Shown one piece after another: positions 4,419-53,803 of a DNA stretch of 64,000 nucleotides. The DNA comes from Helicobacter sp. 16-1353. Its GTDB lineage: Bacteria > Campylobacterota > Campylobacteria > Campylobacterales > Helicobacteraceae. The notes beneath the pieces were generated by a model that was not told the origin of the DNA, ran no database searches, and was given only the letters and a program-made list of their open reading frames with translations. The stretch lies in NCBI RefSeq assembly GCF_003288815.1, contig NZ_NHYM01000003.1, forward strand, positions 1 through 64,000. The letters are read 5' to 3'. How positions within the stretch are numbered: position 1 is the first letter of the stretch; each line of letters starts with the position of its first letter. The position numbers were made by a program, and so were the translations under genes.

Positions 4419-4494
<76 letters not shown>

Positions 4495-9275: not shown

Positions 9276-9303
9276 AGAATAAGATTTCAAGGAAGTAAAC
9301 ATA

Positions 9304-11490
9304 ATGTTTCAAAAAATCATAAATTTTAAGTATTTTAATATCTGCGTTGATGTTTTTTTTATATTAATTGCCATTTTTATATCAATCTACGCACGAGAAG
9401 CGTTTGTGTATTATAGTAGTGCTTTTGGATATTACTTTTTTGATGGTAATAGAATACTTACTACAAATGATGCTTATCATTTCGCCACTGCAACAAAGGA
9501 TTTAATACAAGGGCATATAAAAGATGCTTTTTATCCTATTGCTTCACTTGAGATGCCATCAATATTAAGTGCATTTTTTTATTATATTCTGCCTTTTTCT
9601 TATGATGATTTATTTTTCTATCTACCTATTGGGCTTTCAAGCTTAGTTGCTATTCCCATTTATTTATTTACAAAAGATATAACAAATCGATATTTTGGTT
9701 TATTTGCCGCTATTTTAACGCCACTTAGCATTGGCTATAGCAATAGAAGCGTTGGCGGATATTATGATACTGATATGTTGGTTTTGACCTTTCCTATGTT
9801 TGGTTTATATTTTTTATATAGAATCCTAAAAAACTATCATTTTAAAGATTTAATATTTGCCATTATATTTTTCATTTTATCACTTTTATGGCATAAAGTA
9901 AGTGCGACATATATACTTACAGCTGGGATTTTTATAGCATTATTTTATACTATTATAAAAGATAGAACAAATCTTAAAATATACGAAGCACTAGGTATTT
10001 TAATCATTTCTATTTCGTATATAAATATTATTATTAAATTAATTTTGATTGCTATATTATTGCACTTTATAGCCCCTAAGCCACTATTATTTGACAATAT
10101 AACTACCAAAATAAAATCTAATCTAAGATATAAAAGTTTGCTTATTTTGCTAATAGGATTTGCTGTTTTTATCATTGCAAATGGGGATTTGATACTATCG
10201 CGTTTATCGACCTATATTACGGATAATATGGTAACTTCTAATTCCATTGTATTACATAGCACCGTTGGAACGATAATGGAGCTAAAGCCATTGGATTTCT
10301 CAAATCTAGCAGAACGAACTATGGGAGATAGTGCCACATTTGTGATAGGATTGGTTGGGATTCTTGTTATGTTTATTAAGATTCCAAAAACTTTAATCCT
10401 ACTTCCATTTCTACTTTTATCATTAGCAAGTTTGAAACTTGGGCTTAGATTCTCAATGTTTGGTGCTACTATATTTAGTATGGGATTTTTTTATTTTATT
10501 TATACGATATTAAATGTTCTAAATTTTGCTTTTAAGGATAGGATTTTTTTAAATATTACAAAATTAATTATAGCTTTCTGTTTTGCTTTATTTGCTATTC
10601 TACCTAATTATTATCACACTAAAAATTATATCGTGCCACCTGTTGTGCTTGGAGTTGAATTAAATGCACTTAATGCGATAGATAAAGATTCTAATAGCAG
10701 AGATGATATAACCATATCTTGGTGGGATTATGGATTTATGATTCCATATTATTCGCATACTAGGGCAATTATACAAGGCACGGATTTAGATGGGGTGAAT
10801 CACTTTCTTTCAAGTTTTGTTTTGGCTTCTACGAATCAATTTGCTTCATATAATATGGCAAAATTAATAGCAGAAGCAATAGACACAAAGGATAAAAATC
10901 TACAAAAATTACATAGCATTGATAGGATTCTACATAAATATAATGCAGATTCTAATCCAAAAGCCTTTATGGAATCGCTAAAAAACCCTGATTTTAAAGC
11001 ACCAGAATTACAACATAATATTTATATTTATCTACCATTTAGTATCCTTCCTATTCAAACGGCATTAGATGAATTTAGCGATATAGATTATAGTAGCGGA
11101 GAGGTAATACATAAAGAGGAGAGTAAAACACTAGCACAATACTTAAATATACAAAAAGATGGGGATTCCTATATACTTGATGGCGAATATACATTTTTCC
11201 CAAATAATGGGACATTTAAAAGTAATGAGCTTAAAAAATCTATTCAAGTTCAAAAGTTTCACATCATAGAAAAAACCCCATTGGGGCTAAAAACCACGAC
11301 AAAAACCTATACAAATGATAAAACAAAATTACATATTATTTATTCCAAAGAATTAGATATATTTTTTGCTATAGATGATAGGACGAATGATTCCCTAACT
11401 GTGCAGTTATTTGTATATGAAAACTATAATAAAGATTTATTTACTTTGATTTATAGCGATAAAAACGCCAAAGCATATAAATTGAAATAA
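9304..11490 (+). CDS. pglB: PglB-type oligosaccharyltransferase
   Basis: The protein (728 aa) belongs to the STT3/PglB family, which moves a lipid-linked oligosaccharide onto Asn in periplasmic D/E-X-N-X-S/T sequons. The N-terminal two thirds hold about 11-13 membrane segments. The acidic motif NDAYHFATATKD near residue 55 fits the first-loop metal-binding site, and the STT3 signature SWWDYGFMIPYYS has WWDYG at 473-477. A soluble periplasmic domain makes up the last third. Length is close to Campylobacter jejuni PglB (713 aa). Here it stands alone, next to gpmI, without the pgl glycan-synthesis genes. Enterohepatic helicobacters such as H. pullorum also carry pglB outside a pgl cluster. AAGGAAG lies well placed before the ATG. 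Confidence 0.93.
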   Translation: MFQKIINFKYFNICVDVFFILIAIFISIYAREAFVYYSSAFGYYFFDGNRILTTNDAYHFATATKDLIQGHIKDAFYPIASLEMPSILSAFFYYILPFSYDDLFFYLPIGLSSLVAIPIYLFTKDITNRYFGLFAAILTPLSIGYSNRSVGGYYDTDMLVLTFPMFGLYFLYRILKNYHFKDLIFAIIFFILSLLWHKVSATYILTAGIFIALFYTIIKDRTNLKIYEALGILIISISYINIIIKLILIAILLHFIAPKPLLFDNITTKIKSNLRYKSLLILLIGFAVFIIANGDLILSRLSTYITDNMVTSNSIVLHSTVGTIMELKPLDFSNLAERTMGDSATFVIGLVGILVMFIKIPKTLILLPFLLLSLASLKLGLRFSMFGATIFSMGFFYFIYTILNVLNFAFKDRIFLNITKLIIAFCFALFAILPNYYHTKNYIVPPVVLGVELNALNAIDKDSNSRDDITISWWDYGFMIPYYSHTRAIIQGTDLDGVNHFLSSFVLASTNQFASYNMAKLIAEAIDTKDKNLQKLHSIDRILHKYNADSNPKAFMESLKNPDFKAPELQHNIYIYLPFSILPIQTALDEFSDIDYSSGEVIHKEESKTLAQYLNIQKDGDSYILDGEYTFFPNNGTFKSNELKKSIQVQKFHIIEKTPLGLKTTTKTYTNDKTKLHIIYSKELDIFFAIDDRTNDSLTVQLFVYENYNKDLFTLIYSDKNAKAYKLK

Positions 11491-11913: not shown

Positions 11914-12002
11914 TTCTCCTTTAAAAATAAATTATCAATTAAAAGCCAAGAATTATAAAATTTTTTAGCTTAATTGGCGTTTATTTGAAATAATGTAGAT
12001 AA

Positions 12003-12347
12003 AAGGTGTAGCTATAAGCCGGATTCTGTCGTGTGCGATTATTTATCTAAGGATTATTTCACAATAATCTTTAAGCGAAGAGCTAAAAATATGGAGCTTA
12101 TAACCTGCTCTTCTTGCTACGAATTGGGTTTACATTGCGACTTTAATTGCTTAAAATCCGGTGAGCTCTTACCTCGCCCTTTCACCCTTACCAAGCCATA
12201 GAATTCTTTTTGTGAATCTTATGTTGGCGGTTTGCTTTCTGTTGCACTTTCCCTTATCTTACGATAGCCATCTGTTAGATGGAATCCTGCTCCATTGTAG
12301 TCCGGACTTTCCTCTTAAAATTTTTAAGCAATCGCACGCTACACCTT
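12003..12347 (-). ncRNA. rnpB: RNase P RNA
   Basis: This is the catalytic RNA of RNase P, which trims tRNA 5' ends. On the minus strand the 5' end AAGGTGTAGC (12347 downward) pairs with GCTACACCTT at the 3' end (P1 helix, near 12003-12012). The conserved GAGGAAAGTCCGGACT core segment and the 3' GACAGAATCCGGCTTA segment, which form P4 and its neighbours, are both present. Length is about 345 nt, usual for a type A RNA. Ends are estimated from the P1 pairing. Confidence 0.93.
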
Positions 12348-31066: not shown

Positions 31067-32482
31067 CTAAATCTCCTCCAACACTTTTAGCGCACTTTTT
31101 AGATTCGCCTTTATCTCACTTAGCAGAATCTCCGGAGTCGGCAAGTTCTCCGCATCTTCTAGGCTCTCATCTTTTAGCCATAAAATATCTAAGTTCGTCT
31201 TATCCCTTTTTAAAATCTCATCAATGCCAAATTTTCTAAATCGCTCATTTTCCGCTCCCTCGCCACTTTTTCGCATCTCATAGCATTTCTCAAAGTCGCT
31301 TAAATGCCCCTCATTTAGCGTATTTGTAACAAGGCTTAGATTTACATTCGTCCTTAGGTCATACACCCACACTTCTTTCGTCCTATATCCACTCTCAAGC
31401 GGCGGATATTTATCAAAAAATAGGACATTTGCCTTCACCCCTTGCGCGTAAAATATCCCAGTAGGCAGTCGCAAAATCGTATGCAGGTCAAACTCACTCA
31501 AAAGCCGCTTTCTCACTCGCTCCCCAGCATTCCCCTCAAATAGCACATTATCCGGCACCACCACTGCGGCTTTGCCATTCATTTTTAAAATACTCATTAT
31601 GTGTTGTAAGAAATTTATCTGCTTATTTGAAGTCGTGGAGATGAAGTCCTCTCTGGCGTATTCGCCCTTTTCTACGACGATATTTCCGCCCTCGCCCATT
31701 ATTTTCGTGCTGGATTTCTTGCCAAATGGCGGATTTGTCAGCACCATATCATATCGCTCAGCCCCTAAGCTCACAAGCGAATCACCAGTTTTCACCAGCT
31801 CCTTTTCTCCGCCTAGCCCGTGCAAATATAAGTTCATCGCACATAGGCTAACTACAAGCGGCGTTATATCCACGCCACTCAAATTTTCCTCCCTTAGCCT
31901 TTTTAGCGCTTTTTTATCTTGCGTTTGGGTTTTCATATATTCATACGCACCGATTAGAAAGCCCCCAGTCCCACACGCTGGGTCGCATATACTCATATCA
32001 AATCGTGGCTTCATAACGCTTATGATAGATTTTATCAGCACTCTTGGGGTGAAGTATTGCCCAGCTCCAGCTTTGGTCTCAGTGGCGTTTCTCTGTAGTA
32101 AGCCCTCATATATCGCTCCCTTGACATCGCCTAGTCCCAGCCAGTTTTCGCCATCTATTAGGGCGATTAGCCTTGAGAGTTTGGCGGGCTCAGTTATTTT
32201 ATTTGCGGCTTTTTGGTAGATTTGCCCGATTATTCCGCTTTGCTTGGATAGCTCATTTAGCGTTTTAGAATAGCTAGATTCCAGCTCCTCGCCACTAAGA
32301 CTTCGTAAAACTTCCCATGAGTATTTTTCATCAATTTTAGAATCTAAGCCGATTTCCCTTGCCTCGCTATCCATTTTTAAAAATAAGAGATAGCTTAGCT
32401 GTGCCACATAGTCCGTGTAGCTCACGCCACTATCGCGTAAAATCGAAGCGTAATTCCATACTTTATTTACTAGATTATGCAT
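31067..32482 (-). CDS. hsdM: Type I restriction-modification methyltransferase subunit
   Basis: HsdM (471 aa) methylates adenine in the recognition sequence when joined to HsdS. An N-terminal helical HsdM_N domain (residues 1-110) precedes the Rossmann methyltransferase with SAM-binding DPACGTGG (167-174) and catalytic NPPF (250-253). The TFTPRVLIKSI-like region reads QYFTPRVLIKSIISVM. It is the last gene of the hsdR-hsdS-hsdM operon and overlaps hsdS by eight bases. GC content is visibly above the surrounding genes, in line with acquisition by transfer. Confidence 0.96.
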   Translation of the reverse strand: MHNLVNKVWNYASILRDSGVSYTDYVAQLSYLLFLKMDSEAREIGLDSKIDEKYSWEVLRSLSGEELESSYSKTLNELSKQSGIIGQIYQKAANKITEPAKLSRLIALIDGENWLGLGDVKGAIYEGLLQRNATETKAGAGQYFTPRVLIKSIISVMKPRFDMSICDPACGTGGFLIGAYEYMKTQTQDKKALKRLREENLSGVDITPLVVSLCAMNLYLHGLGGEKELVKTGDSLVSLGAERYDMVLTNPPFGKKSSTKIMGEGGNIVVEKGEYAREDFISTTSNKQINFLQHIMSILKMNGKAAVVVPDNVLFEGNAGERVRKRLLSEFDLHTILRLPTGIFYAQGVKANVLFFDKYPPLESGYRTKEVWVYDLRTNVNLSLVTNTLNEGHLSDFEKCYEMRKSGEGAENERFRKFGIDEILKRDKTNLDILWLKDESLEDAENLPTPEILLSEIKANLKSALKVLEEI

Positions 32483-33674
32483 TTTTCTTAACCCCTCTTT
32501 TTTGGCTTAATCCTCCGCTAAATGCGGACTTTAAAAGCGATTTTTTGCTCTTAGATATATTTGCTAGATTATCACCCACTAGCTTTTCAACTTGCTCTAT
32601 TACTTTAAAATAATGCTCGATTCTTTGGACGATTTTTTCTTGGATTTTAAGTGGTGGCAGGGGAATCTTTTCATTTTTATAATCTTTAAAATAAATATGT
32701 GGAATCGCAGAGCCGGAAATATATTTAGTAAAATTTATAGTTTTCATAAAATAATATAGATATTTTAAATACACATTATCATTATTTACCAAATAATGCA
32801 AAGTTCCTATAACTGATGATTTTTCCGGTAACAATAAGATTCTGCCAACTCCAGCTCCGTCTTTAAGCACCGCTAAACATTCTTTTTCTTGTTTGTAAAA
32901 ATCAACATACGAAACAATTCCCTTAGCCCCATAAATGGGATATTTGCCATTTTTGTCTTTAATATCTTTTAAAGCTATGTTTGAGCTTATAGATTCGCAG
33001 ACTTCCCCAAGTGTTTTTATTTCCCAGTTTGTGGAATCTAGATTCGTGGAATCTAAGCCCATAGAATCCAAGTTTTTAGAATCTAGATTCGTGGAATCTA
33101 AGTCAAAAGAAGCCGGATTGAGAAGGGAGCCATTAAAGGCGGATTTTAGGACGGATTGCTTTAATCGCTTTAAATCCTTTTTCACACATTCCAGCAAATC
33201 CCTCGCCCTATCCAGCCTAGCAAATCTACTCTCCAAAATCCCCACGATTTCCTTTTGCTCCCCAAGTGGTGGTAAGGGAATCTCTAGCTTTGAAAATTCT
33301 CCAATCCAATATCTTTTATGCGTGTCGCTTCTGTGTTGTATCGTCTGCATAAAATAATATACAAATTTGATATTTGCTATTTCTGTGGGGTGTAAAATTT
33401 TCATAGCGGACGATTTAACCTTAAAATTAAAATCTACAAATTTCGTAGCGGTTGTAAAATCATCAAAAATTATTACAGGAATCTTGCTAAAAATTCCCTC
33501 TGTTTCATTTGTATATCCAAGTATAAAACTTTTTCCAGCGGTTAAAACGGGGGTTTTATAGCTATTGCTATAATGCGTAGTTTTTACAATATATTTAGTG
33601 GGTTGTTCGTATTCTAAACATTCCCCAAGCCTTTTAACTTCCCAATTTGCCGGTAGATTCTCTATTTTTCCCAT
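32475..33674 (-). CDS. hsdS: Type I restriction-modification specificity subunit
   Basis: HsdS (399 aa) has the two-target-domain layout. The first target recognition domain spans about residues 5-135 and ends at IPLPPLGEQKEIVGILE. A coiled-coil spacer follows (FARLDRARDLLECVKKDLKRLKQSVLKSAF). The second domain spans about 217-350, ending IPLPPLKIQEKIVQRIE and the second coiled coil ending SVLKSAF-like SLLKSAFSGG. Between them five tandem five-residue units (LDSTN, LDSKN, LDSMG, LDSTN, LDSTN; 192-216) extend the spacer, like the TAEL repeats of EcoR124-type HsdS that set the distance between half-sites. The target sequence cannot be read from the protein. Confidence 0.95.
   Translation of the reverse strand: MGKIENLPANWEVKRLGECLEYEQPTKYIVKTTHYSNSYKTPVLTAGKSFILGYTNETEGIFSKIPVIIFDDFTTATKFVDFNFKVKSSAMKILHPTEIANIKFVYYFMQTIQHRSDTHKRYWIGEFSKLEIPLPPLGEQKEIVGILESRFARLDRARDLLECVKKDLKRLKQSVLKSAFNGSLLNPASFDLDSTNLDSKNLDSMGLDSTNLDSTNWEIKTLGEVCESISSNIALKDIKDKNGKYPIYGAKGIVSYVDFYKQEKECLAVLKDGAGVGRILLLPEKSSVIGTLHYLVNNDNVYLKYLYYFMKTINFTKYISGSAIPHIYFKDYKNEKIPLPPLKIQEKIVQRIEHYFKVIEQVEKLVGDNLANISKSKKSLLKSAFSGGLSQKRGVKKNA
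33027..33101 (-). repeat. Five 15-bp repeats in the HsdS spacer
   Basis: Five units of 15 bp, each of the type ttagattccacgaat, encode L-D-S-x-N/G. Two units are identical at DNA level and the others differ by a few bases. As multiples of three, gains or losses of a unit would keep the frame and change the HsdS spacer length. Confidence 0.85.
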
Positions 33675-36557
33675 TTATGCCACCAAAGTTGTATTTAAAT
33701 CTAAAATTATGGAATCTAATCGCTCTCCAAAGAGCATTTTTGCCTTATAGATTCCGCCTAAATCGTCCGCGCAGTCTTGCAAATCGACCTTTTTTATACA
33801 CGCATTAGAGAGTATATAATCGCGGATTTTTAGTAAAAATGCGTCTTGTTCGGCAGTGAAAACTACGCCCTTTTTTATCTCTCGCCCACGCCATAGATTA
33901 AAGCGAGTGATTCCCACGCTTTCAAAGTCGCTTAGCTCGGTATCAATGTCTATGGCGAAGCGCACGAGCTGGATTAGATTTGTCAATCTTTCTTTGCTTT
34001 TAAGTGGCTTGACCTTATCGCCGCAAGTCGCCGCATAGGCTTTCCAAAGCGACTTTATATCAAAAAGTGGATTAGAATCTAGCAGCTTTTTATATAGCTC
34101 ATCGATTAGCTCATAGGTCAAAAATCGGTTTTTATAGGAATTGTTGTAGATAATTGATAGGGCGGTAATCTCGTCCTTGTGCTTTTCAATGTAGTTTTCA
34201 AAGTCCGCTATAACCTCGCTATCTTCGGGATTTGGCACATTTCCGGTGGAGATGACCTCATCTGGAGTCCAGTCAATATACATTTTGCATTTTTTGGCTA
34301 AGTCTATGAGCTTTTGGCGGAAAGTGGGGTTATTAAAAGGGGATAGAATCTGCTCTTTTATTGCTTCAAAAATGGCGTTGGATTCCGGCGTGGAATGTGT
34401 GGCGGATTCTGCGGATTCTGTGGCAGATTCCGGATTAGATTCGGCTTGGGATTCTGCGTTAGATTCTGCGGATTCTCCGGATTCCACGCTGGATTCCACT
34501 CCGGATTCTTTGCAAGATTCTATAAAATCCGGGTCAGTTAGATTCAGCAATTCATTTGCGATAGTTCGCAAGGTTTTATCGTTGGTTAATTCTAAGATTT
34601 CTTTCAAGTCCTCTTTATCTGCTTTGCGCTCTATTTGGGTGATTCTACGAGCTGTTGTGATGAGCGTATCATCGTCCGGATTGCCCTTTGCGATGATTTC
34701 TAATAGCTTTTTAAGCGAGATAGATTTTTTAGTATCCAGCGGACGAGAATCGTTATCCTTCCATTGACGCTCACTTACGCCCACAGCGTCGATTATATAA
34801 AACTTCTCTTTGCTAATCGCATTTGGCGTAACTTCTCGTAAGCTAGTGGAATCTATCGTTCGCACGCCTCGCCCTTTCATTTGAAAATAATAGCTTTTAG
34901 ACTTCACATCACGCATAAAAATCAGCACTTCAAGCGACTTTATATCCGTGCCGGTGGCTATCATATCCACAGTTACGGCAATGCGGAATTTAGGGTCGGT
35001 GCGAAATGCATTTATACGCATTTCCGGCTTTGCATTGCCGATATTGTAGGTGATTTTTTGTGCGAATTCATCGCTTTTGCTAAAAACTTCCCTTGTTGCA
35101 TTTACGATTTCATCGGCGTGGGCGTCATCTTTGGCAAAAATTAGCGTTTTGGGTATCCACTCGCCCTCTTTATGATTTTTCCGCTCCGGGAAAAGCTGGG
35201 TAAAAAGGGCGTTTTTATAGGCTTCAATTACGGCTCTAATTTGATTTTTAGCTACCACACTTCTATCCAAGTCGCTTTTGGAATACTCAATATCGTCCTC
35301 CAAAGTCTCATAAATAAGCTTTTTAGTGCGTTTATCTCGCACTGGGATTTTGCCGGCTTCTAAGATTCCGCCTTGTTCGCCGATTTTAGTTTTTATGCGG
35401 TAAATCTCGCAATCCACATTTACACCATCAATTATTGAGCGCTCCAGCGGATACTCTGCGACTATATTTTTATTAAAAAAGCCTAGCGTATGCGTTGAAG
35501 GCGTGGCAGATAGCCCAATGATAAATGCGTCAAAATACTCCAAAACCGCTCTCCACTCGCCATAAATGCTCCTATGGCACTCATCTACGATTATAAAATC
35601 AAATGTTTCAATGGGGATTTGGGGATTGTATTTGACCTCCTTTTTTGGCTCTTTATTTGCATTTTCATAGCTGGATTTTTCCTCATTTATCGCCTCAAAC
35701 TCGCTCTCCCCACAAAGCATGGAATAAAGTCGCTGAATGGTGGTGATGATAACTTTTGCGTCTTTATCAATGGCGTTACTAACCAAGTGGCTAGTGGTAT
35801 AAACCTCGCTAAACTTGCGATTAGCGGAATCTGCTAGGATAAAATTATCAAATTCCTTTTTTGTTTGGCGACCTAGATTATTCCTATCCACTAGGAATAA
35901 AATCCGCTTTGCTTTAGCGAATTTTAAAAGGCGATAGGTGAAATTACACGCTGTGTAGGTCTTACCAGCACCAGTTGCCATTTGTATAAGGGAGCGTGGG
36001 CGGGAGCTTTGAAGCGAATTTTCCAAGCCCAAAATCGCCTCACTTTGACACGCCCTAAGATTTGCATTTAGCGGACTTTGGGAGATTGGTGGGATAGGTT
36101 TAAGGCGATTTCGTAAAGTGCTAGTTTCTAGCAAGATTTCTTTTAAAAATTCCGGTTTATGAAAGCTAAAAAGATTCCTACTAGGGACATTTATATCCCT
36201 AAAATCCCTGAATCTAAGCTCATTTCCATTGCTCTCATAGGCAAAAACCAAATCGCTATTTATATTAAAATGCTCCGCCCAAGATTTGGTATCTTTTGGG
36301 AGATTTCTAGCGTAATTACTAGCTTGAATCTCCGCTCCGCCAAGCGAAATCCCCTCTTTTTTTGCCTCGATTACACCACAAGCCTTGCCATCGATAAATA
36401 AGATATAGTCCGCAAAGCTCCCATCGCGCATTGCAAACTCCCTAACCGCCACGCCAAGCGAAGCAGTGCGATTAAACTCCGCTCTATCTTGCACGACAAA
36501 TCCGGCATTTTGTAGCATTTCATCGATTTTTATTCTAGTGCTTTGCTCTGGGGTCAT
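33675..36557 (-). CDS. hsdR: Type I restriction endonuclease subunit R
   Basis: HsdR (960 aa) translocates DNA and cleaves it when unmodified sites are met. The N-terminal nuclease shows FADYILFIDGKACGVIEAKKEG (residues about 46-67, catalytic D...ExK). The SF2 helicase has Walker A QMATGAGKT, DECHRSIYGEW (DEAH-type box) and IGLSATPS, then FAKDDAHADEIV and DMIATGTDIKSLEVLIFMR and MKGRGVRT. The C-terminal part resembles the EcoEI-type R subunit. Between about residues 690 and 725 a low-complexity segment of Glu-Ser repeats (encoded by repeated gattctgc-like DNA) interrupts the domain join. The gene starts the operon and directly abuts hsdS. Confidence 0.95.
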   Translation of the reverse strand: MTPEQSTRIKIDEMLQNAGFVVQDRAEFNRTASLGVAVREFAMRDGSFADYILFIDGKACGVIEAKKEGISLGGAEIQASNYARNLPKDTKSWAEHFNINSDLVFAYESNGNELRFRDFRDINVPSRNLFSFHKPEFLKEILLETSTLRNRLKPIPPISQSPLNANLRACQSEAILGLENSLQSSRPRSLIQMATGAGKTYTACNFTYRLLKFAKAKRILFLVDRNNLGRQTKKEFDNFILADSANRKFSEVYTTSHLVSNAIDKDAKVIITTIQRLYSMLCGESEFEAINEEKSSYENANKEPKKEVKYNPQIPIETFDFIIVDECHRSIYGEWRAVLEYFDAFIIGLSATPSTHTLGFFNKNIVAEYPLERSIIDGVNVDCEIYRIKTKIGEQGGILEAGKIPVRDKRTKKLIYETLEDDIEYSKSDLDRSVVAKNQIRAVIEAYKNALFTQLFPERKNHKEGEWIPKTLIFAKDDAHADEIVNATREVFSKSDEFAQKITYNIGNAKPEMRINAFRTDPKFRIAVTVDMIATGTDIKSLEVLIFMRDVKSKSYYFQMKGRGVRTIDSTSLREVTPNAISKEKFYIIDAVGVSERQWKDNDSRPLDTKKSISLKKLLEIIAKGNPDDDTLITTARRITQIERKADKEDLKEILELTNDKTLRTIANELLNLTDPDFIESCKESGVESSVESGESAESNAESQAESNPESATESAESATHSTPESNAIFEAIKEQILSPFNNPTFRQKLIDLAKKCKMYIDWTPDEVISTGNVPNPEDSEVIADFENYIEKHKDEITALSIIYNNSYKNRFLTYELIDELYKKLLDSNPLFDIKSLWKAYAATCGDKVKPLKSKERLTNLIQLVRFAIDIDTELSDFESVGITRFNLWRGREIKKGVVFTAEQDAFLLKIRDYILSNACIKKVDLQDCADDLGGIYKAKMLFGERLDSIILDLNTTLVA

Positions 36558-41939: not shown

Positions 41940-42388
41940 TCCTATTCTTAAAATAGATTCTTTTGGGGGATTCCCCCCCCCCAAAAAAAAACATAATCAT
42001 AGAAATTACTAATTTTTAGCTTGGAATCTATAATCTTTCTTATAAACTAACTTTATAAAATTAAAGAATCTCAAAATTCGTTATTGTTTCTAATGCAGAC
42101 TTTTTTAATATTAAATCTTTCAACATTCTTAAAATCACTAGCTTTAGCTAATAAAGGGCTTAAAGTAGAGATTGTATTACTTTAACTTTTAAATTTGGAG
42201 AATTAGGCAAGAAAATTATAGATTTTATTCTACCTAGTTTTTTATGATGTTTTTTATAATTATATTACTTAGATGGCTTTTTAAGCACATTCTATGAAAT
42301 CTATAGAAATCTATGAAATTTTAGAATCTTTAAGAGAATCTTAAAATATCCATAAAAAGCAAGGAATCTGCTATTTAAAGGAATTGTG
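41940..42388. other. Intergenic region with a poly-C/poly-A tract
   Basis: About 450 bp. Right after the outer-membrane gene lie five G, then ten C and nine A (41965-41991). No gene is supported beyond it. Fragmentary frames around 42090-42240 are broken by many stops. The region is AT-rich and contains the promoter of the RND adaptor. Confidence 0.6.
41973..41991. repeat. Intergenic C10-A9 homopolymer tract
   Basis: Ten C at 41973-41982 are followed by nine A. Five G just before (41965-41969) can pair with the C-run to form a small hairpin, but no T-run follows on either strand in a terminator position. The tract may be a slippage-prone relic or affect the 3' end of the outer-membrane gene transcript. 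Confidence 0.6.
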
Positions 42389-43786
42389 ATGAAAAGTATA
42401 AAAATAATAATCTTTTTTATCTTTACTCTATTTTTTATCGCCTGTGGGTCGAGCGAAAAAGCGCAAATAACGCAAGAGCAAGAAAGCCCAAAAGTGGCTG
42501 GAATCTTGGTAGAAAATAATGATGTAGATATAGTTTTGGAATATCCAGCGAGATTTAAGAGTATCCAGCAAAGCGAGGTTTATGCCCGTGTGGAGGGCAT
42601 TTTAATGGAGCAGTATTTTAAAGAGGGAGCGTTGGTAAAGAAAGACGATTTACTTTTTAAAATCGAGCCGAGTGCCTATTTAGCGGAGGTTGAGCGACTA
42701 AATGCAGAGATAAAATCCGCCGAGGCGAACTTGGATATGATGACTAGGGATTTTAATCGAATTGAGAAATTATACGCACAAAAGGTCGTTACAATCGATG
42801 TTTTTGACACTTCGCATTTTAATTTTAGGAGTGCAACAGCTAGATTAGATTCGCTTAAAGCAAGTCTTAAAAATGCCAAGCTAAATCTAGCCTATACAGA
42901 GGTTAAAGCCCCAATTAGCGGGAAAATTGGTGCAAGAAATATCGATATTGGGAATATGGTGGGAAATGGCAATAATATTTTGGCGACCATAACCCAACTA
43001 AGCCCGATATATGCGGACTTTTCAATTCCGCCGGGCGATATTGATATTATTCGAAATAGCGATTTGGAGGATATAAAAGTGGATTTTATCTTGCAAAATG
43101 GGGCGTTAAATAATGCATTAAATGCCAAGAATCCGCAAAATCCACAGAATCTAAATGGGTCGCAGAATCCAAACACTGCATTAAACACGCAAAATCCACA
43201 GAATCTAGGTGTGAATCTTGAGCGATTTAAGCCTAAAAATTCCAGCGGTAAAATCGACTTTTTGGATAGCACACTAGATGAAAATACCGCTACGCTAAGG
43301 GCTAGGGCGATTTTTGATAATAGCGATAATTTCCTAATTCCAAATGAGTTTTTGCAAGTTCGGCTTAGTGGCTTGGAGCTTAAAAATGTCGCTACAATAC
43401 CGCAAACGGCGATTTTACAAGATTCCAATGGGAGTTTTGTGTATGTGGCAAATCCGACGGAATCTAAGGAATCTATAGAATCTATAGAATCTATGGAATC
43501 TGCTAACTTAGATTCTGCGGAATTCGTCGAATCTGTGGCGAATCTAGCGGATTCTACGACGAATCTAGATTCAAGTGAATCTATAAAAATCATCAAAAAA
43601 GTCTATATCAAAATCGCCCAAAGAAATACGAGCGAGAATCTGGCAATTATCGAGAGTGGCTTAAATGTGGGCGATGTGGTGGTTACGAATAATCTTGTGA
43701 AGCTAGTCGAGGGAATGCAGGTGGCTCTCAAGCTAGATTCTAGCAATCTAGCGAATGCACCTTTGCCTAAAAATCCCACTTTGTAG
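42389..43786 (+). CDS. RND efflux periplasmic adaptor lipoprotein (HefB/CmeA-like)
   Basis: The protein (465 aa from the ATG at 42389) is a membrane-fusion protein of tripartite RND efflux. It is a lipoprotein (MKSIKIIIFFIFTLFFIACGSS, Cys20). The lipoyl and hairpin parts show YPARFKSIQQSEVYARVEGILMEQYFKEGALVKKDDLLFKIEP, the alpha-hairpin AEIKSAEANLDMMTRDFNRIEKLYAQ and LAYTEVKAPISGKIG. Two low-complexity inserts are unusual: Asn/Pro/Gln repeats (NPQNP..., near 43110-43215) and Glu-Ser-rich DNA-repeat derived SKESIESIESMES and later (43459-43590). The GTG just upstream is less well spaced from AAAGGA. It needs a TolC partner, not found here. Confidence 0.9.
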   Translation: MKSIKIIIFFIFTLFFIACGSSEKAQITQEQESPKVAGILVENNDVDIVLEYPARFKSIQQSEVYARVEGILMEQYFKEGALVKKDDLLFKIEPSAYLAEVERLNAEIKSAEANLDMMTRDFNRIEKLYAQKVVTIDVFDTSHFNFRSATARLDSLKASLKNAKLNLAYTEVKAPISGKIGARNIDIGNMVGNGNNILATITQLSPIYADFSIPPGDIDIIRNSDLEDIKVDFILQNGALNNALNAKNPQNPQNLNGSQNPNTALNTQNPQNLGVNLERFKPKNSSGKIDFLDSTLDENTATLRARAIFDNSDNFLIPNEFLQVRLSGLELKNVATIPQTAILQDSNGSFVYVANPTESKESIESIESMESANLDSAEFVESVANLADSTTNLDSSESIKIIKKVYIKIAQRNTSENLAIIESGLNVGDVVVTNNLVKLVEGMQVALKLDSSNLANAPLPKNPTL

Positions 43787-53215: not shown

Positions 53216-53803
53216 TAGAATCTCTTAAAGTTTTACGAGAATTTAAAGTTTTAGAATCTCACAGATTTCATGTTTTTAAACTTTAAGATTCCATAGATTC
53301 TGCGAAAATCTGCAGAATCCTAGAATTATAAAAGTTTGGATTCTCGCAGATTCCGCCTTAGAATCTAACTTCCCACATTCCAACAGAATCTAGATTCTTA
53401 AAACTCTCGCGGAATCTCTGCGGATTTTTTAAGTTTAGATTCTTTCAAACTTAGAATCTTGCTTAAATTATAAAAGAAAAGTAAAAACCACGATGATGTT
53501 TTAAAATGCTTATGCTAATGCAATTTAAGAATCTTTTTTAAGTAAAAGTGGGGAAAACAAGACTTCTATATTTAAAGCTTAAATTTCTAGGATTCTAATG
53601 GATTTCATCTCAAACAAATCAAGCAAATGCAATTTCTTAAAATCCCAAATCTTTAGCCAAATAATTCCACCGCCATTTCTAAATTTTCTTTAGCAAAATG
53701 AATAGTAAAGTTTTCTAGTAAAACAAAGTTTCTTGCAAAAGATTTATGGGCTTGGGCTATTTTAAAGAAAATAAAGTCTATTAGATTCTATAGAATCTAG
53801 CCC
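53216..53803. other. Non-coding region rich in GAATC/GATTC
   Basis: About 590 bp between island B and lepA with no supported gene. Many GAATC/GATTC words occur, for example near 53340-53460, along with purine-rich stretches. I see no hairpin of terminator form for lepA. Confidence 0.6.

Follow-up and report, generated by a model that had tools for sequence, protein, structure and literature searches.

Why should the words GATTC and GAATC recur so often in an ordinary coding segment of Helicobacter sp. 16-1353? The stretch under study, hereafter the window, comprises bases 1–64000 of one contig (C26) of a 1.91-Mb draft genome, and the segment lies within the translated pglB open reading frame (ORF; 9304–11490, + strand). 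The sole named relative found for its product, PglB, came from an uncultured member of the Helicobacteraceae (59% identity). The RNase P RNA gene adjoins pglB (11999–12347, − strand), and a tRNA-Phe lies at 4419–4494. A preliminary description of this DNA had reported ten GATTC or GAATC words in 660 bp of pglB (10321–10980), and direct counting returned the same ten, seven GATTC and three GAATC (at 10359, 10380, 10448, 10687, 10740, 10797, 10833, 10926, 10948 and 10972). The expectation of about one word for such a segment also holds, as the segment's own composition with independent bases gives 1.23; the GC content of about 30 percent assumed there has to be replaced by 34.1% for the whole window.

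Across the window, GATTC and GAATC occur 417 times, compared with 133 expected for independent bases or 255 under a maximal-order Markov model. A genome-wide count against a Markov model demonstrated that the excess is neither near expectation nor restricted to the window. AGATTC is present 8,766 times genome-wide, and its reversed word 1,543 times. In 0.64 Mb of the genome, no other 6-mer is as over-represented as AGATTC, whether in genes (3.33-fold relative to synonymous-codon shuffling) or between them (11.8-fold relative to a first-order Markov model). When intergenic GATTC words were aligned, a purine preceded 96% of them and a pyrimidine followed 90%, with little signal further out. Neighbouring words in intergenic DNA showed no comparable enrichment (CGATTC 0.81, TGATTC 0.44, AGATTT 1.95, AGACTC 0.11, AGAGTC 0.22), indicating that the signal is a degenerate 7-bp palindrome, RGAWTCY. 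The excess first described is therefore real and was understated, and the true word is longer and narrower: RGAWTCY, not GANTC.

RGAWTCY was found at 9,288 sites in 1.82 Mb, or 1 per 195 bp. Genes contain 7,248 sites, compared with 1,876 in synonymous, codon-preserving shuffles (3.86-fold), and the signal in genes goes beyond codon and amino-acid choice. The excess that had been claimed for intergenic DNA as well is borne out genome-wide, with 1,271 sites between genes against 96.5 under a Markov model (13.2-fold). Both in genes and between genes, RGAWTCY ranks first of the 128 comparable odd palindromes. The window as a whole (1–64000) holds 328 sites where a first-order Markov model predicts 39.4 (8.3-fold), and its ORFs show a 4.1-fold excess relative to synonymous-codon shuffling. 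The four GANTC words behave unlike one another, GAWTC being enriched and GASTC depleted; in the window, GAGTC and GACTC together occur 6 times against 35.7 expected, while GAATC and GATTC are in excess. Taken together, the RGAWTCY excess is real, genome-wide, exerted at the DNA level and clade-specific. No earlier report of RGAWTCY was found in the open-access literature; with subscription papers outside that scope, its novelty is provisional.

One explanation is that the excess is a by-product of restriction-site avoidance, the loss of GATC, AATT and other words inflating the counts of similar ones. The near-absence of GATC, GTAC, ACGT, GGCC, CATG, GCGC and CCWGG and the lowered count of AATT speak for this. 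However, such displacement cannot plausibly yield a 13-fold excess between genes or the sharp purine and pyrimidine edges, and three genomes (G001, G003 and G087) are enriched though few methylases of those tested turned up in them. We therefore disfavour this explanation and consider it very improbable. As a separate matter of composition, GATC occurs 4 times in the window against 534 expected, and GATATC and words of the TCNGA and GTSAC types are also avoided in the window and the genome. Poly-C runs of at least 6 are over-represented genome-wide (CCCCCC 15-fold), as expected for phase-variable tracts.

The distribution of the word was assessed across the class, in the Helicobacteraceae (f1, genera g1–g13) and in other families, including one (f2) that we take to be the Campylobacteraceae. 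Genus g2 probably corresponds to gastric, H. pylori-type Helicobacter; both assignments follow from gene content, genome size and the numbers of species. The ratio of AGATTC to its reversed control was approximately 2 to 13 in most genomes of g1, g3–g7, g12 and g13, and the excess was weak or variable in g8–g11. In none of the 34 g2 genomes did AGATTC exceed its reversed control, the word being either depleted or level with it, and in one g6 genome (G086) the two were likewise level. Other families of the class showed no AGATTC counts of the size seen in the Helicobacteraceae, and the high ratios in some of their genomes arise because the reversed control is rare there. RGAWTCY itself, in 20-kb samples, was 4- to 18-fold in excess in most, about 2-fold in g8 and g9, and about 1-fold in G086, g11 and g2. 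In g13 the GATTC core is present with different flanks, and no other dialect stood out in g11, G086 or g2.

A codon-preserving test of 32 palindromes with purine and pyrimidine edges placed RAATTY first or second in five f2 samples (1.4- to 2.6-fold). RAATTY is not enriched in the Helicobacteraceae, at 0.73-fold in Helicobacter sp. 16-1353. By the same test, RGAWTCY reached 3.1- to 4.3-fold in the window and in samples of g3, g4, g5 and g7, and 0- to 0.7-fold in f2. Related lineages carry different words, RGAWTCY in f1 and RAATTY in f2, the putative Campylobacteraceae. Several further patterns were seen beside these. In Campylobacteraceae-like sequences (L162–L171), RAATTY is over-represented and YAATTR depleted; the RAATTY excess is strongest in genus g14, where AAATTT is the top 6-mer, and in g23 as GAATTC. 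Relative to synonymous shuffles, RAGCTY is moderately over-represented in many f1 and f2 genomes (20-kb samples).

RAATTY has a known role. In C. jejuni, DNA uptake requires m6A methylation of the word by CtsM, in the account of Beauchamp et al. 2017 given by two later papers that cite it (PMC8468864, PMC10046745). We propose that RGAWTCY may be its Helicobacteraceae counterpart, acting as a "self" label: DNA bearing the word would be taken up preferentially, via a receptor, and the word would accumulate through this biased uptake. Among the three options offered in the preliminary description, namely an uptake-like word, a methylation-linked GANTC-type motif and a mutational bias, the first is the best supported, through the clade pattern, the Cts-type operon described below and the reciprocal distribution of RAATTY; the uptake function itself we infer. 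The reciprocal pattern is the main argument, and it is correlational. The uptake reading is further supported by an excess at the level of the word both in genes and between genes, and by the recurrence of this one word across most Helicobacteraceae genera with nothing comparable in other families.

The genome of Helicobacter sp. 16-1353 carries dprA and a Cts-type operon (C4:23182–28987) encoding a secretin, a TPR-like protein, a T2SSE ATPase and T2SSF. T2SSF is present throughout the Helicobacteraceae except in every g2 genome and in one genome that is 67% complete, and its absence from g2, the genus without the excess, which thus lacks the type II secretion-like (Cts) apparatus, supports the uptake reading. 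This association probably represents a single evolutionary event. In G086 and g11, T2SSF is present and the RGAWTCY excess absent; these exceptions count against the uptake reading and hold our confidence in it near one half.

A HIP1-like process, in which a methylase for RGAWTCY or GANTC and methylation-directed repair make and preserve sites with no role in uptake, would also account for a word that is built like a methylase site. In cyanobacteria, HIPs follow their methylases (PMC4390886), and nearly all GANTC sites carry m6A in H. typhlonius, whose genome (1.92 Mb, 38.8% GC) has 20,546 motif positions (PMC4705304). In H. pylori 26695, GANTC is equally near-fully methylated (5,570 positions; PMC3936762), yet g2 lacks the excess. 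If the tables count both strands, H. typhlonius has about 10,270 GANTC sites where roughly 6,800 are expected. On the same condition, H. pylori has about 2,790 where roughly 5,900 are expected from general values for its genome size and GC content. That full methylation coincides with too many sites in H. typhlonius and too few in H. pylori indicates that methylation alone does not yield the excess.

No RAMA-domain methylase of the CcrM/HinfI kind was found in the Helicobacter sp. 16-1353 genome, and RAMA-type GANTC candidates, which were considered as a driver and rejected, occur mainly in g2. Eight other methylases of this genome do not track the word. Among them, an orphan methylase (L052, 215 aa) beside dprA is patchily distributed and has no close copy in the strongly enriched G004, G046 and g12. 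Six other PF01555 methylases are absent from the enriched G003, G054 and G087, with one weak match in G001. A 461-aa D12 methylase, considered as a CtsM orthologue, is of a widespread type that is present in g2 and G086. No methylase among those tested tracks RGAWTCY as a cognate orphan enzyme would. The suggestion of a GANTC methylation motif is accordingly less likely, as H. pylori, whose lineage is probably the one without the excess, methylates GANTC and the enriched word is narrower than GANTC; we judge the HIP1-like process unlikely. The set of DNA methylases in this 1.9-Mb genome is very large, with 14 PF01555 matches and several genes of the D12 class (on contigs C2, C6, C11, C22, C26, C27 and C29); in another genome (G097), a D12 methylase gene at L180:16554–17048 appears truncated after about 164 codons and is followed by prophage-like genes.

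The sites are not evenly spaced, as one site per fragment would have them; that arrangement was rejected. Gaps of 7–30 bp, mostly multiples of 3, are in excess, and 21% of RGAWTCY sites fall in runs of at least three. Coding runs, of up to 13 sites, encode ES/DS-rich stretches, and other runs are non-coding. In the window, a non-coding array of 11 sites in 174 bp (53286–53459) lies between listed ORFs and has stops in all six frames. An in-frame array of 11 sites (34380–34521) lies in an HsdR-like type I restriction protein (ORF 33675–36557, − strand; NCBIfam match to type I restriction endonuclease). Six sites (43459–43516) fall in frame in the C-terminal end region of an RND efflux periplasmic adaptor (ORF 42386–43786, + strand), whose NCBIfam RND_mfp match spans residues 42–357 of 466, and five sites at 15-bp spacing (33033–33099) lie inside ORF 32475–33674 (− strand). 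Some arrays are ES/DS-rich stretches inserted into conserved proteins. The D12 methylase of Helicobacter sp. 16-1353 has 461 residues, and its full-length relatives (64–70% identity) mostly have about 335–345; the extra block is an array, which is clearly an insertion there. Adjacent spacers are 48% alike, compared with 34% for random spacer pairs, indicating that arrays grow partly by duplication. Runs of up to 11 sites were also found within 20 kb of a genome from another genus (G046). A scan of viral contigs for arrays was set aside as a lead, the contigs among the matches listed being mostly unrelated; two viral contigs of unknown host (L238 and L206; IMG/VR) have a 7- to 10-fold RGAWTCY enrichment, a biased figure as they were picked by array pattern.

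Dense arrays in coding and non-coding DNA, together with a palindrome that fits a dimeric protein and is identical across genera, could also point to the binding word of an abundant chromosomal protein, serving nucleoid organisation, segregation, or end protection and recombination, and directly selected for many copies. No candidate protein was identified, the intergenic gaps peak at 7, 9 and 12 bp with no obvious 10–11 bp helical periodicity, and, in contrast to Chi, a palindrome lacks an orientation. A binding word of this kind seems rather improbable, and slightly more so than the HIP1-like process.

Turnover of the word bears on whether a mutational or repair bias might create or protect RGAWTCY without any function. 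Such a bias would explain why every sequence class is affected genome-wide, and turnover is high, with approximately 65% of sites differing between congeners. The 52 single-step differences observed, a small sample, involve 6 of the 7 positions and 11 of the 12 kinds of base change; changes of nearly all kinds argue against a single-base repair bias, and Vsr-like repair was rejected as a cause on this ground. Words one step away, AGATTT for example, show no depletion, and the arrays keep RGAWTCY intact while their spacers have diverged. The mutational bias raised in the preliminary description is thus the less likely option, and we hold it to be distinctly unlikely. In aligned orthologous genes within the genus of Helicobacter sp. 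16-1353, RGAWTCY sites were shared in 35% of cases (114/326), compared with 16% (652/3998) for permuted control words. This roughly twofold greater sharing of motif sites between congeners supports the uptake reading.

Against that reading stand one site per 195 bp and dense clusters, which exceed what one site per fragment needs; the short, palindromic form of RGAWTCY, unlike the uptake sequences of Neisseria and Haemophilus; and the failure to find a CtsM counterpart that tracks the word. On the comparative evidence, we consider the chances evenly balanced that RGAWTCY is a self-recognition word for DNA uptake. More tentatively, and with rather less than an even chance, biased uptake in non-gastric Helicobacteraceae may be strong enough to build and keep RGAWTCY arrays inside functional genes and so reshape proteins, a bacterial form of molecular drive.

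Should RGAWTCY prove to be an uptake word, transformation with self-recognition would be more widespread in the Campylobacterota, with words differing by lineage, and H. pylori, which takes up DNA indiscriminately, would be a derived exception tied to a changed uptake machine. It would also help to explain the poor entry of foreign DNA into enterohepatic Helicobacter, and the arrays would be a striking DNA-level drive that alters proteins. Should it not be one, an undescribed word that is shared by many genera and present in nearly ten thousand copies would still need explaining.

Among known systems, Chi-like sites are asymmetric with a replication-oriented bias, whereas RGAWTCY is a palindrome without orientation. 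The DUS of Neisseriaceae and USS of Pasteurellaceae resemble it in their genome-wide excess and in dialect-like differences between related families. They are asymmetric sequences of 9–12 nt with hundreds to about two thousand copies, whereas RGAWTCY has 7 bp, is palindromic and has nearly ten thousand. The GANTC sites of HinfI, CcrM and M.HpyAIV type, methylated in H. typhlonius and H. pylori, share the core GAWTC, but the RGAWTCY excess is limited to the W centre with R/Y edges, and methylase presence mismatches it. HIP1 and the alternate HIPs (PMC4390886) are likewise highly iterated short palindromes in coding and non-coding DNA, shared within clades and lost in some members; they differ in tracking specific methylases, whereas RGAWTCY tracks none tested, and in a density of about 1 per 1000, against 1 per 195 bp and dense arrays. 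RAATTY of C. jejuni differs in its core (AATT in 6 bp, against GAWTC in 7 bp) and its smaller excess, in having CtsM, of which no counterpart tracks RGAWTCY, and in an uptake role and methylation dependence that are published for C. jejuni, as cited above, and putative for RGAWTCY. The two words nevertheless share a short palindromic form, AT-rich at the centre and bounded by R and Y, in lineages of related order (for RAATTY, PMC8468864, PMC10046745), a Cts-type apparatus, and over-representation of each in its own family by the same test.
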